Shown here: positions 254 through 7,791 of the stretch, piece by piece
How positions within the stretch are numbered: position 1 is the stretch's first letter
Layout: each line of letters begins with the position of its first letter
IMG/VR virus record: IMGVR_UViG_3300035703_000047
Location: 24,986 to 88,985 of that record
From: a virus
Reading direction: 5' to 3' (one strand)
DNA length: 64,000 nucleotides
Made by a program: the position numbers and the translations under genes
Notes under the pieces: generated by a model
The model's input: only the letters and a program-made list of their open reading frames with translations
Database searches by the model: none
What the model was told of the DNA's origin: nothing

Positions 254-1384
254 TCAGAAAGGAGCGGGTTGGTCAACGTATTCTACGGTCAGTTCAGGAC
301 CAGTAGAAGGCATTTGGAAATCAGCATCCACTTTATCATACAGTTCCAGGAAGGACTGTTTGGTCTCATCGTCGAAACGATTCACACACACTTGGATTGC
401 CTTTGCCTTGTCTTGGAAGATGCTGTAAGCACGGATGATATGAACCAGACGGCGAGTGCTGATGATTTCCTCAATACCACCATCATAGAAGGTCTTGCGG
501 ATGATGTCTGCCCAATCAGCAAGACGTTTGCAGAAATCAGTCTCACTAATGTTCAAAGATTCAGTAACCTTTTCAAGAATCTTAACTTCATTGGAAACTG
601 AAGGATATTCCTGTTCAAGAGTCACCGGAAAACGTTCTAGGAACGCCTCGTTGAGCACGTTGGTGCCGATGAACCTACCGTCATCAGAACCCTTGCCTTT
701 AGTGTTTGCGGTGGCAATCACGTTGAATCCCGCAGCAGGTTTTACGAACTTACCGATCTTTTTCAGGAAGACACCTTTACCTTCTAACACGGATTGTAGG
801 CAAAGGATTTTGTTGGAGGCAAGGTCAATCTCGTCAAGGAGCAGGATCGCTCCACGCTGGAGTGCTTCAATCACAGGACCATTATGCCAAACAGTAGCAC
901 CATCCACAAGACGGAAACCACCGATAAGATCGTCTTCATCAGTTTCAATAGTAATGTTTACGCGGATTAGTTCACGCTTAAGTTGAGCACACGCTTGCTC
1001 CACAGAGAACGTTTTACCATTACCCGAAAGACCCGTAATGAACGTAGGATAAAAGAGACGGGACTGAATAATGCGTTTAATGTCTTTAAAATTACCAAAC
1101 TGGACGAAGGTATCATCTTTATCGGGAATAAGATTTTGTTCAGCAGCAGGAAGAACGGCAGGAGCACTAAAAGAACGTTCAATCTCCTCAACACGTTCTT
1201 GAGTCACTTCTAGATTCCAACGACCACGAGCAGTCTTGAAGTTTTCCAAACGACGAGTAACAGTAGGATATGAAAGATTATTCATTGCACAATAGGCTTT
1301 GATATCACCGGAAGTGATTTCAATTCCATAAGCAGATTTAAGGCCTTCAAGAACTTGATCGTCAGTCATTTTGGTACGAGACAT
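254..1384 (-). CDS. cobS: CobS-like / MoxR-family AAA+ ATPase
   Basis: 376-residue AAA+ ATPase. Walker A GLSGNGKT is at about 118-125, Walker B ILLLDE at 160-165, a sensor-1 region NVIATAN at 221-227, and an arginine-finger-like NEAFLERF near 235-242. The first 60 residues look like a small helical DNA-binding-type or leader domain (KAYCAMNNLSYPTVTRRLENF). The family includes CobS, the ATPase subunit of aerobic cobaltochelatase, and MoxR chaperones that act with VWA proteins. Cyanophages commonly carry a gene annotated cobS. A CobT-like VWA protein is encoded 4 kb upstream (5415-7646), so the two probably work together. Whether the target is cobalt insertion or remodelling of another protein cannot be read from the sequence. 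The gene has no late-promoter octamer; a TATTAT element lies about 40 nt upstream. Confidence 0.9.
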   Translation of the reverse strand: MSRTKMTDDQVLEGLKSAYGIEITSGDIKAYCAMNNLSYPTVTRRLENFKTARGRWNLEVTQERVEEIERSFSAPAVLPAAEQNLIPDKDDTFVQFGNFKDIKRIIQSRLFYPTFITGLSGNGKTFSVEQACAQLKRELIRVNITIETDEDDLIGGFRLVDGATVWHNGPVIEALQRGAILLLDEIDLASNKILCLQSVLEGKGVFLKKIGKFVKPAAGFNVIATANTKGKGSDDGRFIGTNVLNEAFLERFPVTLEQEYPSVSNEVKILEKVTESLNISETDFCKRLADWADIIRKTFYDGGIEEIISTRRLVHIIRAYSIFQDKAKAIQVCVNRFDDETKQSFLELYDKVDADFQMPSTGPELTVEYVDQPAPF

Positions 1385-1469
1385 TTGGTGGTGTGTTTCT
1401 CAACTGAAGCTATAATACCACCATACAAGGGGGGTGGACGGAGGGGTGTGCCACTTTTCAAACTGGACA

Positions 1470-3482
1470 CTAGAGTATTTCTTTTACTTTACCAATTAAA
1501 GTTCTGCCCCAAAAGTCAAAAATAGAAATTTCTATTTCAGGATCTACAACATATAAAGACGCTAAACATCTCTGTTGTGAAGTTTGAACTTCAATATGTC
1601 CATATAAAAATGTTGTGGCATCAGTGGAAAAAATATTTGATAGATTAACAAATTTTTTCCCAGTTCCAACAAAAATATTAGCAAACTTTTCCGCATCTTT
1701 ATATAGATCAGCCATAACAAATTTAACCTGAGTTCTTTTAAAAAGTTTCCAATATCTAATAAAATTACCAACCCCACCAAAATGATCCATCAGTTCTTTA
1801 TATAGATTTGAAAAAGATTCGTCTTCAGAATACTCGCAATCAATTTTCCCTATCCAAGTAAAATAATCTCTTTCGGAGAAACTTCTAATACAATCAATTA
1901 GATCGTCATTCTTCCAACTGTGTAAATGTTTATACCATCGTAAACTTTTTACATTAAAATCATAGACTATAACTTTTCCATCTTTATTTAATTTTTTATT
2001 TTTAAAAATATCAAATAATTTAAATCCACTTGCAGTATTAACAACCAAGTCAAAGTTACCCTTATTGGATATATGCATTGTTTCACTATTAAATAACCAA
2101 ATTTGGTCCTTTATCAATTTTACATCAGATATAATTTTAGATTGATTCCAATTCTGACCTTCATATGGAGTTAAGGCTTTAATACTATCCTCAAACTTAT
2201 CTGTTTCATGTTCAGGATAATAATAAAATTTATTAAACCTCAATTTTTCACTCAAAGTTATTACTGGCCAATTATTCAAAAACATAGCCTTTAAAAGATT
2301 CCAACCTCTTCCAGCCTCAGACTGCATGGCTTGTTTATTTGAGTACTTAACCCACAAAGGAGTATAATCATCATGAAAGTTTTCCACACTTCTTTCCACA
2401 ACAGGTAAAAGTTGTTTTCCAGAGTACCACTCTCCAAACTTTGGACAACCCACTTTCTTCCATGCTAAAACATTAACTATAAAAAATTGTGGGTGCAATT
2501 CCAACCACTTTCCAGGCCAAGCCAAAATATGTCCAGCTACTCCAAAATTATTATTCTCTTTTATAAACTCTCTTATTTCTCTATCATACTCAAAACTTTT
2601 TAAAGTACAACCTGCAGATTGAATAACACAATACTGATATCCCTTAGTTAATGATTCATTTAATATTTCATGCACTTCATCTCCACATATTATCTCAGCC
2701 CCATTCCTAGGCCTATTGAGATAAAATAAAGTTGCACCTTTGGCTCTAAGATACATTGGGAAACTACTAATAGAGTTTCTCTGATTATAAACTCCATAAC
2801 AAATTTTACTTTCTTTCATATCAAGTTGTTTGAATGCGGTTTGAATTAAATTATCATTAATATGTCCATGGACAATAAAGTGATATCTTGGTTCATTACT
2901 ATCGTTATAAACTGCATGAATATTACCTATATCTAAAAAGAATCCTGTCCCCTGTTTAAATGGAACTCTACCCCAATCTTTAAAATAAAAATTACATCCT
3001 TCAGGATTATTAATTGCTATATTTAAAGGTCCAAAAATTCTACCTTCTCCGTCAGAATGAGGCATGATATATCCACCAGGAGAGAGTCTCATAATCCGGA
3101 CTCTATCATAATTTTTGTACCCCAATCTTCTTAAGAACTTAGTACAAGTAGGAAAATATTTACATACTTCAGTCCATTTGTAATTTGCTTCAGATAATCC
3201 ATACTGATCAAAATGTTCAGTGACATCCGGTCTAATTCCGTGAAGAGTTAAAGCTGCCCATCCCTCATGAGAATAACTCAAGTGTTTGTCTTTCTGTCTG
3301 TGACCAACAAAAAGATGATCATTCTCAATACATTCCTGATGCATTTTTTCAAAATCATCTTTGAAGTCTATTTGTAAAAAAGGCCAGTCAGACTCAAATA
3401 CATCAAAATGTTTTGAAACCTCAGTTGGATGCCATTGATTATCTAATGAAGATTTTATAAATTCATCAAGTATTTCAACCAT
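1470..3482 (-). CDS. Aspartyl/asparaginyl beta-hydroxylase-like (2OG-Fe) domain fused to a long unknown region
   Basis: 670 residues from the ATG at 3482; a longer frame from a TTG at 3491 is less likely because the ATG gives a compact overlap with the upstream stop. Residues about 115-210 have the cupin/2-oxoglutarate oxygenase pattern: H142-x-D144 (MPHSDGE), distal H189 (GNIHAVYN) and R199 (EPRYHF), closest to the AspH family. Such enzymes hydroxylate Asp/Asn side chains or small substrates using Fe(II), O2 and 2-oxoglutarate. The remaining roughly 460 residues are not recognised. They contain NTASGFKLFDIF and GKVIVYDFNVKSL, which could be part of a Rossmann-type fold. It is co-transcribed with the 320-aa gene upstream (8-nt overlap) from a CTAAATA late promoter, so it is probably made late. 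The substrate is unknown. Confidence 0.72.
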   Translation of the reverse strand: MVEILDEFIKSSLDNQWHPTEVSKHFDVFESDWPFLQIDFKDDFEKMHQECIENDHLFVGHRQKDKHLSYSHEGWAALTLHGIRPDVTEHFDQYGLSEANYKWTEVCKYFPTCTKFLRRLGYKNYDRVRIMRLSPGGYIMPHSDGEGRIFGPLNIAINNPEGCNFYFKDWGRVPFKQGTGFFLDIGNIHAVYNDSNEPRYHFIVHGHINDNLIQTAFKQLDMKESKICYGVYNQRNSISSFPMYLRAKGATLFYLNRPRNGAEIICGDEVHEILNESLTKGYQYCVIQSAGCTLKSFEYDREIREFIKENNNFGVAGHILAWPGKWLELHPQFFIVNVLAWKKVGCPKFGEWYSGKQLLPVVERSVENFHDDYTPLWVKYSNKQAMQSEAGRGWNLLKAMFLNNWPVITLSEKLRFNKFYYYPEHETDKFEDSIKALTPYEGQNWNQSKIISDVKLIKDQIWLFNSETMHISNKGNFDLVVNTASGFKLFDIFKNKKLNKDGKVIVYDFNVKSLRWYKHLHSWKNDDLIDCIRSFSERDYFTWIGKIDCEYSEDESFSNLYKELMDHFGGVGNFIRYWKLFKRTQVKFVMADLYKDAEKFANIFVGTGKKFVNLSNIFSTDATTFLYGHIEVQTSQQRCLASLYVVDPEIEISIFDFWGRTLIGKVKEIL

Positions 3483-4437
3483 AAACTTCAATTTTTTTTA
3501 CATCTTTTACTTTTGAAAAAACTTCATTATTCCATCTTTTTTGCAAATCTGCATCATTATACCAATCTTTTTCAATTCGATGAAATTTCAAAAGATCATT
3601 ATTGACAACAATTGAGCCAAGATAATATCTACCTAATGCTAATTTACTTAAATCATCTAAAGGAATTTTATCTTTCGTATCTTGATTTAAATTTTTATAC
3701 CAAGTATGGAATTGAGATTCAAGTTCCTTCAAAAAATGCGGTCTTTGATGAAAACAAAGCCATGCTTCCGAACTATACATGCTTTGTATTTTTACTTGTT
3801 CGTTATCAACAACCCTAACATCATTATCATATGCGGCACTCATAAAATCTTTACCCAAGGTATTATATCCAAGATAAAGATGACCCCAAGAAAACTCTGT
3901 GGTTAAAAATATTTTATCCTCTTCTTCTAATTTTTTACCTGGATATGGAGGAAAAACCGTGACTAAACAACTATAGTTTGGAAATTCCCCTTTTCTCGTC
4001 TGCAATGCATTCTCGGTTATATGAATATAATCATTAAGATTCAACCAAGCAGTATGAATTTTTTGACCACGAGCCCATGGGCCGTTACCAAAATCAGACT
4101 TCTCACCATATTCTTCAAATTTTTCATGTAGATTATTCAGATTAACTCTAGTCAAATCCCCAAGTCCCTTTAAAGGAATTAGAGGTTTATGTTCATATGC
4201 AAAATTAATAATATCAATTAAAGAATTAAGTTTTTCATACAATTCACGCAGATTTGTATAGTTTTTATTTGATATATCAAGATTAGGATAGGAGTTTTTA
4301 GTCTTTGAATAACTCTTAACTTCTTGTATCCATCTATCAGTTAAACTACTATTTTGAAGATTATAAAGTAATTGAAGTAATTTTCCATTTTCCAATTCAA
4401 AGGTATACCTTACACTTTTTCTTCCTGATAAAAACAT
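3475..4437 (-). CDS. Conserved-looking hypothetical protein (320 aa)
   Basis: 320 residues, soluble, with no signal peptide or membrane segment. The N-terminal half is helical and lysine-rich. The centre contains PFPPYPGKK-like and TEFSWGHLYLGYNTLGKDF segments, followed by an aromatic-rich stretch with several Trp and His residues (EAWLCFHQRPHF). I do not recognise the family. The stop overlaps the start of the AspH-like gene by 8 nt, so the pair is almost certainly translationally coupled and probably acts on the same substrate. A CTAAATA late-promoter element lies 33 nt upstream. No RBS stronger than an A-rich leader is visible. Confidence 0.75.
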   Translation of the reverse strand: MFLSGRKSVRYTFELENGKLLQLLYNLQNSSLTDRWIQEVKSYSKTKNSYPNLDISNKNYTNLRELYEKLNSLIDIINFAYEHKPLIPLKGLGDLTRVNLNNLHEKFEEYGEKSDFGNGPWARGQKIHTAWLNLNDYIHITENALQTRKGEFPNYSCLVTVFPPYPGKKLEEEDKIFLTTEFSWGHLYLGYNTLGKDFMSAAYDNDVRVVDNEQVKIQSMYSSEAWLCFHQRPHFLKELESQFHTWYKNLNQDTKDKIPLDDLSKLALGRYYLGSIVVNNDLLKFHRIEKDWYNDADLQKRWNNEVFSKVKDVKKIEVYG

Positions 4438-4469
4438 TTTAATAAAAAATCAAAATAATAACGATAATT

Positions 4470-4476
4470 TATTTAG
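4470..4476 (-). promoter_or_regulatory. Late promoter element (CTAAATA)
   Basis: CTAAATA on the minus strand, 33 nt upstream of the 320-aa gene start at 4437. It matches the cyanophage variant of the T4 late octamer. Confidence 0.6.
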
Positions 4477-4478
4477 TT

Positions 4479-4775
4479 TCAATCGAATCGGGAACTCTGC
4501 ATCTCATCACTACGTTTTTTGTCCGCACGACGCTTTGCAACCTTCTGTGCTGGAGATGCAGGTGCGCCATATTGACCAGCAGTAGGTGGTTTTTTACCAG
4601 GAACTTTTTTACGTTGTCCAGCAGGAGTTCCCTCCATACCACGAATCATTTTTTTAACATGGGTGTATGCCTTATCAGTCGATCCACCGGACTTGACTTC
4701 TTTACCAGTCTTATAATCCTTACCAGTTTCTTTTTCGTAGCGATTGAGTTCGCCAATCAGGACTTTCCCAGGCAA
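4479..4775 (-). CDS. Basic protein in the -1 frame, probably the C-terminal extension of the 201-aa ORF
   Basis: This frame encodes GELNRYEKETGKDYKTGK and then a Lys/Pro-rich region ending SPAQKVAKRRADKKRSDEMQSSRFD. It has no ATG near its start. The first possible initiator is a TTG at 4775, inside the end of the 201-aa ORF. Upstream in the same frame a TGA occurs soon after, so independent translation would need that TTG. GGAGGA lies only 3-4 nt before the TTG. I prefer the reading in which ribosomes slip -1 at GGGAAAG (4763-4769) and continue into this frame, adding 94 residues (from VLIGELN) to 200 residues of the upstream ORF to give about 294 aa. A real indel or a sequencing error is the alternative. 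Function is not recognised; the product is strongly basic and low in hydrophobics. Confidence 0.75.
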   Translation of the reverse strand: MPGKVLIGELNRYEKETGKDYKTGKEVKSGGSTDKAYTHVKKMIRGMEGTPAGQRKKVPGKKPPTAGQYGAPASPAQKVAKRRADKKRSDEMQSSRFD

Positions 4776-5362
4776 ACATCCTCCATGATTGATTCAAACC
4801 AGGACTCACTCATGTTGAGAATAATTTTATCTGCAGCATCTTCGGTTGACGCAAATCCTTCGTCAAGAAGATAGGATAAAACTAATTCATATGTATTGAT
4901 ACTTTCACCAATCTCACCCATTGCCTTTTGCTTACGCAGTTTCTTGGGATTCTTGGTTACTGTGCCAGAACCATGTTTGTGTCCGCCAGAAGTATACTCA
5001 ACGGCACTATCTCTTGCATAATCTCTAGTATCTTGATCTAGTTTTCCTCTACCAGATTTACCCGCAAAACCAGAGTATCTAGGTTTAGTGGATTTCTTAC
5101 CACGATCCCCAGCATCAGGTCCATTATCAATTCTACGAGTGTGTTTTTCAATTTCTCTTACTTTCTTGGTCTTTTCACCTTTCTGCGAATACTCACTTGC
5201 TGGTTTCTCACGTCTAGCAATAGCAACTTTTCCCATTGCCGCTCTTGCCTTTGGAGTTTTGCCATAAGAACCTTCTGCCTCAAGAATTTCTTCAACTTCT
5301 TCTTGAAAGACATTAACTTGTCGATAGGCTTCCATTAGGCTTTGCAGATCTTTAATGTCCAT
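4757..5362 (-). CDS. Basic hydrophilic hypothetical protein (201 aa), zero-frame product
   Basis: 201 residues. The N-terminus is acidic and helical (LMEAYRQVNVFQEEVEEILEAE), followed by a long Lys/Arg/Gly-rich, probably disordered middle. The C-terminal helical segment is YLLDEGFASTEDAADKII, then NMSESWFESIMED, a type of ending I associate with small marine myovirus proteins. It begins 23 nt after a perfect TATAAATA late promoter, so it is expected to be a late, possibly virion-associated protein. The stop TGA (4757-4759) follows a canonical -1 slippery heptamer by 3 nt, and the next gene continues in the -1 frame. The short 201-aa and extended roughly 294-aa forms may both be made. Confidence 0.8.
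   Translation of the reverse strand: MDIKDLQSLMEAYRQVNVFQEEVEEILEAEGSYGKTPKARAAMGKVAIARREKPASEYSQKGEKTKKVREIEKHTRRIDNGPDAGDRGKKSTKPRYSGFAGKSGRGKLDQDTRDYARDSAVEYTSGGHKHGSGTVTKNPKKLRKQKAMGEIGESINTYELVLSYLLDEGFASTEDAADKIILNMSESWFESIMEDVCLGKS
4763..4784 (-). promoter_or_regulatory. Putative programmed -1 ribosomal frameshift site
   Basis: On the minus strand the sequence is GGAGG (4780-4784), 10 nt of spacer, then GGGAAAG (4763-4769), which is in the zero-frame register G GGA AAG required by the X XXY YYZ rule. The zero-frame stop TGA follows after one codon. GGGAAAG is the heptamer known from phage lambda gpG/gpGT. An internal Shine-Dalgarno about 10 nt upstream is the stimulator known from E. 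coli dnaX. I saw no strong hairpin downstream by eye. Confidence 0.65.
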
Positions 5363-5384
5363 GTTTTTACAAATACTTTTTAGT

Positions 5385-5392
5385 TATTTATA
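5385..5392 (-). promoter_or_regulatory. Late promoter (TATAAATA)
   Basis: Perfect T4 late consensus TATAAATA on the minus strand, 23 nt upstream of the 201-aa ORF start. It directly abuts the T-tract of the preceding terminator. Confidence 0.8.
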
Positions 5393-5415
5393 AAAAAAGA
5401 AGGGTTTTCCCTTCT
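5392..5415 (-). terminator. Intrinsic terminator of the CobT-like gene
   Basis: On the minus strand AGAAGGG and CCCTTCT form a perfect 7-bp stem with an AAAA loop, followed by a run of T. The first stem base lies in the CobT-like stop codon (5415-5417), and the T-tract runs into TATAAATA. Confidence 0.9.
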
Positions 5416-7646
5416 CATGCAACAAAGTCAATAAACTCACCAAGAACTTTCTTATTCATTTTTTTACTCTTCAGGGACTTGACAAACGCAGATCGAATCT
5501 GAGTTTTACTTGCATCATCAGAAACTTCAAACTCTGCATCATTAGAAAGAGCAGAGCCAGAAAGACCAAAGTATACATGATATCCAGATTTTTTAATTGA
5601 AAAGGATTTATGTTTCTTCCAATCATTCATGATCTCATTGTATTCCTTATTCTCCGAATAATACCCAGAAGAATAATCAGAAGTTTCATAATAACGACGA
5701 ACAAAACTTCCTGCATCACGACCTTCCAGGACCCGAATACCAATAAAATTTACATCTGTAAAACGATCACGAAGATTGCGAAGAAGAACATCAGTAAAAC
5801 TAGTAAAATCTCCTTCCAAGTTGTAGGAGAACCCGATTTTACGATCTCGTAGAATAGTATTCACTCCAATAGAATTCAAACCAATATACACTTCTTCGGA
5901 GTCATAATTAAAACGACCTTTAAATTCTTTGTGAAATTTAAGAGGTGCAGCTTCACCATCAGTCAAAACCACACACTGAACTTTCTGAAGTTTATTTTCC
6001 TGTTGAAACTGAGGAAGAATTTGATGAAGTGCAACCAAGCTTTCATTCAAAGGAGTTCCAGAAAGAGAAAGACGATATGGATGAGTATACTCTGGTGCAT
6101 CATTATAGGAGTACTTGAACTCTTTTGCCAACCTAAAGATGTTAATCATTTGTTCTTCAAGAACACGATTATTCACTTTACTGGTAAACAAGTTCATAAG
6201 TGAGAAAGATTCATCAACATGAATCAACCCATGTTTTTTCTCATAATGAGGTTTAATAGGTTGTGGATAATTATTTTCATCCCGATCTGGGCGGCGCCAC
6301 TCATTAGTAAATGCATAAACCTCAAATGGAATAGATACTTTCTTACAGAACCAAATCAAATTATAAAGTTGTTTGATAGTATCCATCATAACATTAGACA
6401 TTGAGCCGGACCAATCAAGAATAAAGACCAAACCATGATTCTTACCATTAGCAAGAGTAGTGACTTTCTTGAACAGGTCTTCGTTGTATTTGTAAGTATG
6501 AAGTTTAGAACAGTCCAGAACACCAGTACGGGCAGTAGTAGCACGAGCGTAAGAATCTGCTGCCTTACGACACTCAAACTCTTTGACCAGATAATTGACT
6601 TCCTTCTGTGCAGAACGTTTAAATTCAATATATTCTCTATCTACTTTTCCAAAAAGATGATTTTTAGCGAAATTATAATGTTGTTCCTCAAACTTTTGAA
6701 TTGTTTTTGACCACCAATCATTAATTTCTCCATGAACATCAGAATTAGATGCAATGACTGTATCAAGATTCAATTTGGGAATCTGCAAGTAAATATTTTC
6801 TGAAGAATTTGTATTCACAAGATCCCGAATTGCTTCTTCAAGATTATCTACAGTTTTAACTTCAGGTTCAGAAGTATCACCCCCAATATTCGAAGTTTTA
6901 TCTGAAGGAATATCGGTTTTTTCGTCGGACTGACCATCAGAAGGGGACTGGTTACCTTGACCGGAAGTTTCTAGATCATCCTTATCCGAAGACTCCTGAG
7001 ACATGTCCTCGGACTGATTACTGGGAGTAGATTGAAGATTATCAAAAGAATCAATCTTAGTTTTTTCTAGATCTTTTCTCTTACAATACTCATAAAGTTT
7101 TACAGCAGCTGCAATCGCATCATCAAAAGTTTCTGCATCTGCAACCATATTCAGGATCTCAGTTTCTTCACCCCGTTCAATAGGAACCTGAGTAAATCCA
7201 CCGATCTTAAACCACAGATTTACACGATCAGCTAAATTGTAAGTAGAAATATCATCATCCTTAATCTGGAAAAAATCATCCTCATGCAGTTCCTTATATC
7301 CCGCAAAGAAAGATTTATTGAGACCGGCATAACGACGCTTCATCATCTTTTCGATGCGAGCGTCCTCAGTTACATTCACGAATTGTTGGGGAATGGTAAA
7401 CTTCTTACTCCAATCCTCATTAGGAGTATAAAGTGCGTGACCCACTTCATGTCCAACAAGCATATCGTATATAGAGTTAGAAGCCTTCTCCCACATGGGG
7501 AGAGTCAACACACGAGTATCCACATTGAAACATGCAGTAGGAACATGTTTGTGTTCCACCACAAGGTCTTCCGTTGCGAGAAGACGAGCGAGTTGACCTT
7601 TGACTTCGTGATTAACAGGCATGAACTTTGTTTCGTATGCAGCCAT
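5415..7646 (-). CDS. CobT-like protein: zinc metallopeptidase-type domain plus VWA domain
   Basis: About 743 residues from the ATG at 7646 (MAAYETKF). A start at 7667 would add seven residues encoded within the overlapping 59-aa ORF. The N-terminal domain has HEVGH at 66-70 and, about 24 residues on, NVTEDARIEK, a gluzincin-like zinc-site arrangement. Residues about 205-265 are a Ser/Asp/Glu/Gln-rich linker like that of CobT. A von Willebrand A domain follows, with its MIDAS: DWSGS near 408-412, a Thr in SGTPLNES near 528, and Asp in LTDGEA near 557. VWA proteins of this kind are partners of MoxR/CobS ATPases, and the cobS-like gene is nearby. The HEVGH motif argues for a protease or a structural zinc role rather than a plain cobaltochelatase subunit. 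The gene is last in the gp55-gp47-gp46 transcription unit and is followed by a strong terminator. Confidence 0.85.
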   Translation of the reverse strand: MAAYETKFMPVNHEVKGQLARLLATEDLVVEHKHVPTACFNVDTRVLTLPMWEKASNSIYDMLVGHEVGHALYTPNEDWSKKFTIPQQFVNVTEDARIEKMMKRRYAGLNKSFFAGYKELHEDDFFQIKDDDISTYNLADRVNLWFKIGGFTQVPIERGEETEILNMVADAETFDDAIAAAVKLYEYCKRKDLEKTKIDSFDNLQSTPSNQSEDMSQESSDKDDLETSGQGNQSPSDGQSDEKTDIPSDKTSNIGGDTSEPEVKTVDNLEEAIRDLVNTNSSENIYLQIPKLNLDTVIASNSDVHGEINDWWSKTIQKFEEQHYNFAKNHLFGKVDREYIEFKRSAQKEVNYLVKEFECRKAADSYARATTARTGVLDCSKLHTYKYNEDLFKKVTTLANGKNHGLVFILDWSGSMSNVMMDTIKQLYNLIWFCKKVSIPFEVYAFTNEWRRPDRDENNYPQPIKPHYEKKHGLIHVDESFSLMNLFTSKVNNRVLEEQMINIFRLAKEFKYSYNDAPEYTHPYRLSLSGTPLNESLVALHQILPQFQQENKLQKVQCVVLTDGEAAPLKFHKEFKGRFNYDSEEVYIGLNSIGVNTILRDRKIGFSYNLEGDFTSFTDVLLRNLRDRFTDVNFIGIRVLEGRDAGSFVRRYYETSDYSSGYYSENKEYNEIMNDWKKHKSFSIKKSGYHVYFGLSGSALSNDAEFEVSDDASKTQIRSAFVKSLKSKKMNKKVLGEFIDFVA

Positions 7647-7791
7647 AATACGACGAAACCGCCCCATTGGAGCGGTTCATGTGACGCTTTTTGAACTGGG
7701 CCAGTCGTGCTTTCGCCTGGCGCAGTGCTTGTGGTTTAAGTTTTCGTTTCTGGGGTTTTCCAGAGTTGTGTTGCCAGTTTGGTGTGGTCAT
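7612..7791 (-). CDS. Small basic ORF (59 aa) coupled to gp46
   Basis: The start ATG at 7791 overlaps the gp46 stop as ATGA, and the TAA is at 7612-7614, giving 59 residues beginning MTTPNWQHNSGKPQKRKLKP. It is very basic, with a helical KPQALRQAKARLAQFKK segment. It overlaps the beginning of the CobT-like gene by about 35 nt in another frame. ATGA coupling is used elsewhere in this cluster (gp55/gp47, uvsW/135-aa, gp16/gp15), which supports it. The family is unknown; a nucleic-acid-binding accessory to gp46/47 would fit but is a guess. Its local GC content is higher than its neighbours. Confidence 0.55.
   Translation of the reverse strand: MTTPNWQHNSGKPQKRKLKPQALRQAKARLAQFKKRHMNRSNGAVSSYYGCIRNKVHAC

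Follow-up and report, generated by a model that had tools for sequence, protein, structure and literature searches.

A probable frame-breaking 32-nt insertion resembling a −1 frameshift signal in a modular gene of a T4-like cyanophage

Introduction

The heptamer G_GGA_AAG is documented as shift-prone in Escherichia coli (PMC5009743), and frameshifting in dnaX of E. coli is stimulated by an internal Shine–Dalgarno (SD) sequence upstream of the slippery site (PMC5600365). The heptamer G GGA AAG is also that of the gpG/gpGT genes of phage lambda. A different kind of recoding is represented by gene 60 of phage T4, where extra nucleotides within the coding sequence are bypassed by the ribosome. A literature search combining frameshift with cyanophage gave no match. 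The locus described here lies in a 64,000-nt stretch of viral DNA, referred to as the window, which is part of an 88,985-base record derived from a metagenome. It shares features with each of these systems, and it is compared here with its relatives in T4-like cyanophages (Kyanoviridae).

Results

Organization of the locus

Two reading frames on the minus strand, encoding the modules designated A and B, meet at the site under study, with the following features.

4757..5362, minus strand: 0-frame ORF of 201 aa, comprising an N-terminal part and module A (...LLDEGFASTEDAADKIILNMSESWFESIM), then the insert-encoded EDVCLGKS and a stop
4479..4775, minus strand: −1 frame ORF, module B (ELNRYEKETGK...SSRFD), 98 codons from the TTG at 4775, 94 of them after the heptamer
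4752..4783, minus strand: 32-nt stretch GAGGATGTTTGCCTGGGAAAGTCCTGATTGGC, delimited by alignment with eight relatives; it supplies the stop, the heptamer and GGAGG minus its first G
4780..4784, minus strand: GGAGG, SD-like, with the heptamer 10 nt and the TTG at 4775 4 nt downstream
4763..4769, minus strand: slippery heptamer G GGA AAG in 0-frame register (GGA in frame)
4757..4759, minus strand: TGA, the 0-frame stop

The junction reads ATG GAG GAT GTT TGC CTG GGA AAG TCC TGA on the minus strand, and the 201-aa ORF ends in ...SIMEDVCLGKS. From the heptamer to 4479 the −1 frame reads VLIGELNRYEKETGK...SSRFD. A preliminary description had located GGAGG (4784-4780), the 10-nt spacer, GGGAAAG in register (4769-4763), TGA (4759-4757) and the −1 frame down to 4479, all of them correctly; it omitted the TTG codon at 4775-4773, which opens the 98-aa ORF in the −1 frame 4 nt past GGAGG.

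The A gene directly follows a CobT-like gene (5415-7667, minus strand, phrog_459), and downstream of A/B come a gene for a 320-aa protein and then an Asp-hydroxylase-like gene. On a wider scale (254-7667, minus strand), a CobS-like AAA ATPase and the CobT-like protein enclose an island that differs in content from relative to relative; in the window it holds the A::B gene, the 320-aa gene and a 673-aa Asp/Asn-hydroxylase-like protein. Two further features precede the A gene.

5385..5392, minus strand: TATAAATA, 22 nt upstream of the A-gene ATG
5414-5392, minus strand: intrinsic-terminator-like hairpin GAAGGG-AAAA-CCCTTC-T7, right after the CobT-like gene and overlapping TATAAATA

The octamer at 5385..5392 (minus strand) is identical to the consensus of T4 late promoters. 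The hairpin and this element ahead of the A-gene ATG suggest that the A::B gene may start a late transcript. In one relative (L110), another ATG is preceded by a nearly identical TATAAATAACTAAAAAGTATTTGTAAAAA stretch.

Single-ORF relatives and the modular family

Both frames are part of a modular protein family found in T4-like cyanophages. In phage DSL-LC02 (Kyanoviridae), A and B are joined in one 370-aa protein (WJZ48229.1, ...KIMENMGESWAQEIITELNRLEREQGK...MQSSRYD), whose C-terminal part is homologous to module B of the window (73%), and g291 of S-CRM01 is a single fused protein too. Further one-ORF A::B proteins were found in IMG/VR (L066, L090, L168, L204-L223), and module A has homologues in L066, L065, L072, L087, L088-L090 and L104, among others. 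The view of the preliminary description that both frames belong to one protein is thereby upheld, as relatives make both modules as a single polypeptide. Neither frame matched a family in searches of PHROGs and Pfam, and nothing was found in a scan of GTDB genomes.

Synteny extends the comparison to the very position of the gene. In relatives whose CobT-like protein is 80-91% identical to that of the window (L153, L154-L156, L162, L168, L170, L198), an uninterrupted A::B ORF stands where the window has two frames. The 320-aa and Asp-hydroxylase-like genes also come next in L153-L156 and L168, as in the window, while a CobS-like gene directly follows A::B in L170 and L198. A pattern scan with the 320-aa neighbour yielded no confirmed relatives; its syntenic homologues, however, appeared beside the A::B gene.

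In IMG/VR scans that used B, the A protein or an A-module alignment as query, adjacent A and B were always in one frame in records other than that of the window. The scans gave 29 A-module loci, 23 of which were counted as distinct; a many-times-broken contig (L231) and a distant member (L232) were set aside. All of the remaining 21 read on without a frame change directly past 'IME' or the corresponding residues; B follows in nine, and different C-terminal modules follow in the rest. Domains are therefore shuffled at the junction after 'ME'.

The larger family to which these proteins belong (L204-L230; L001-L005; L088-L146) is unnamed, and its N- and C-terminal modules are shuffled, examples being EGSYGKTPKA..., LLDEGFAST...NMSE.W...IME and ELNRYEKETGK.... 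Whichever module comes last, these proteins often end in a similar SSRFD, HSRYD or SPRD tail. A second member is present in the same record outside the window (L007, G000:C1:8195-8449); it is at least 943 aa long and very rich in K, E and R, in a frame that stays open over 1,110 codons.

Modules A and B also occur alone in relatives, as A-only genes (L102, L110, L114) and as ATG-started B-only genes (L050-L053); a split therefore need not be lethal, and the fusion may be dispensable. These genes are also in keeping with a true gene split, by which A and B would be separate proteins and B would start at the TTG at 4775 (MPGKVLIGELNR...), in frame 4 nt past GGAGG, by translational coupling to A. 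However, the 4-nt spacing and the TTG start are poor and the B-only relatives have a proper ATG, which makes this explanation improbable.

The 32-nt insertion

Nucleotide alignment with eight relatives leaves no ambiguity: it is gapless in both flanks up to ...AT(C/T)ATG and resumes at GAACTCAATCG; between these points the 32 nt are present only in the window. The insert lies at the exact meeting point of A (...NMSESWFESIM) and B (ELNRYEKETGK...SSRFD). The relatives thus encode one uninterrupted protein, from which the window differs by 32 nt, a length not divisible by three. The preliminary description had taken uninterrupted homologues with no slippery site as evidence against recoding, and these are what the alignment revealed. 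A programmed frameshift conserved in the gene family is not supported, the insertion that carries the arrangement being seen solely in the window, and the prediction of two products in a fixed ratio is left without comparative support, as the arrangement is confined to this insertion.

No related record came up in pattern scans with the insert itself, with spacers of 6-36 nt at the A/B junction or with GKVLIGELNR under every codon choice, although records very near the window may lie outside the set scanned, so that close siblings may share the insert. The insert occurs only once in the window and in the whole 88,985-base record. As a possible origin, a 19-nt exact match antisense to a probable phage tail-sheath gene, identical in four contigs (L148-L151), was judged to be due to chance, since, by our estimate, a collection this large should contain about one such match, and the window has nothing else that resembles it. 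The edges of the insert show a GA identity and share TCAATC, both of them too short for interpretation.

In this record, both the frame break and the 32 additional nt are genuine. The assembled sequence could nonetheless depart from that of the replicating phage, in which the 32-nt stretch, or the loss of one base within it, would be absent; one more base in a run of the heptamer would turn the insert into an in-frame 33-nt linker within a single open frame. The insert is known from a single metagenome-derived record, a homopolymer length error of one base would give exactly the picture observed, and frame breaks abound in another contig of the family (L194/L231). Against such an artefact, the rest of the window holds long intact ORFs and a 32-nt stretch would be an unusual assembly error, so that this explanation appears decidedly improbable. 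The contig in question (IMGVR_UViG_3300049043_000117) has the same locus broken by many frame changes, probably as an error-rich assembly, and its A-B junction (...IMELNRFEKE...) is devoid of the 32-nt insert.

The edges of the insert also bear on a programmed translational bypass like that of T4 gene 60, in which the ribosome would take off at the GAG codon that opens the insert, pass over 32 nt and resume at GAA to give ...SIME joined to LNRYEK. The Glu codons GAG and GAA match at both edges, the exact protein of the relatives would result, and a hairpin can form within the insert. This hairpin, however, is no better than those of shuffled sequences (z −0.30), the GA shared by the two edges may be coincidental, and the take-off codon GAG is followed by GAT rather than directly by a stop, which departs from the gene 60 type; a bypass is hardly conceivable here.

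The putative frameshift signal and RNA folding

The heptamer G GGA AAG at 4769-4763 conforms to the pattern X XXY YYZ, in 0-frame register and ahead of the 0-frame stop. A functional, recently acquired −1 programmed frameshift is the main competitor of a plain disruption, re-initiation after a split, an assembly artefact and a gene 60-like bypass being less likely. By this explanation the internal GGAGG would pair with 16S rRNA, the ribosome would pause and slip from GGA AAG to GGG AAA, and a 294-aa A::B fusion (...EDVCLGK joined to VLIGELNR...) would be made beside the 201-aa A protein, restoring the protein made by relatives. The heptamer, its register, the SD-like element and the spacing are as in known cases, G_GGA_AAG itself being prone to shift (PMC5009743).

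The frequency of such a signal by chance was estimated from random 32-nt inserts placed at the site, with an early stop and an overlap. A canonical in-register heptamer occurs in 2.9% of these, and the heptamer together with an SD-like tetramer 8-14 nt upstream in 0.1%. The latter value is a real argument for function, weakened by the fact that the slippery site had been picked by eye from the whole window and by the 94 canonical in-register heptamers inside its intact long genes (13,615 codons), eight of which have an SD-like element. The heptamer is not diagnostic; the match is notable yet does not establish function. As for stimulators, GGAGG is present 10 nt upstream, but the RNA downstream of the heptamer folds no better than shuffled sequences do (z −0.75 and +0.44), and no downstream stimulatory structure was found by this comparison.

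Selection on module B

Comparison of module B with that of L008 gave a dN/dS of about 0.14, with 7/7/29 changes by codon position. With L013 as outgroup, six amino-acid changes are specific to the window, all of them in the last 13 residues, and 15 synonymous codons are window-specific. Module B still evolves like coding sequence and displays no visible decay, a point in favour of a functional frameshift; the insertion may be too recent for decay to show. As the insertion is perhaps much younger than the divergence from L008, selection on B cannot separate 'still translated' from 'recently broken'.

Discussion

The observations are probably best explained by a lineage-specific, frame-breaking 32-nt insertion, or an out-of-frame recombination junction, that split a modular gene of a T4-like cyanophage. 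Comparison with the relatives establishes the split and the descent from a single ORF, and the levels of the products are predictions. In the lineage, or in the assembled variant, the insertion or recombination at the A/B junction would have divided the gene; as 32 cannot be divided by three, reading in the 0 frame stops at the TGA at 4757 and B falls in the −1 frame. Since the modules of the family are freely shuffled after 'ME', an out-of-frame junction would be a natural accident. Translation would then give chiefly the A protein, 201 aa long and ending in a short foreign tail. Module B may be lost or silent, or made at a low level via unprogrammed −1 slippage at G GGA AAG, and adventitious slippage of this kind could still yield some fused protein; alternatively, B may be made by weak initiation at the TTG at 4775.

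Against a disruption stand the in-register heptamer and well-spaced SD-like element within the insert, the undecayed module B, and the clean remainder of the contig, with intact ORFs of 2,500 and 4,261 aa. A functional frameshift nevertheless has only a small, if real, chance of being correct: neither the two-frame arrangement nor the slippery site is conserved, every relative seen having one ORF and no insert, and intact genes, too, contain canonical heptamers accompanied by SD-like elements. A slightly smaller chance is given to the insert having brought a complete −1 signal (SD-like element, heptamer and stop) by which a fusion once made constitutively became two products in a controlled ratio, a cassette caught early. 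The programmed frameshift that was claimed is thus probably not a real feature, the conservation test having failed and the sequence match being the sole positive evidence.

If slippage were functional, this would be a rare programmed frameshift with its pre-frameshift ancestor known in syntenic relatives, and its origin would be traceable. On present evidence, the disruption indicates that a module-shuffling family can yield frame-broken variants which mimic frameshift signals in a single genome, and homologues should be compared before recoding is called.

Comparison with known systems

The lambda gpG/gpGT genes share the heptamer with this locus, but their arrangement is conserved with measured product ratios, whereas here the relatives have one ORF; moreover, nothing in the window gene suggests a tail-assembly chaperone. 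The likeness to E. coli dnaX lies in an SD-like element placed some 10 nt ahead of the heptamer. In dnaX, however, the heptamer is A AAA AAG and a downstream stimulatory structure is present, as compared to G GGA AAG and no notable structure in the window. With the bypass of T4 gene 60 the locus shares extra nucleotides within a T4-like phage coding sequence that is continuous elsewhere; it differs in having no take-off codon directly before a stop and no evident conserved hairpin or nascent-peptide signal. The closest counterparts are the one-ORF A::B proteins of cyanophages, which have the same modules in the same order and, for several, in the same position after the CobT-like gene; these are uninterrupted and free of the 32-nt stretch, whereas the gene of the window is interrupted by it.
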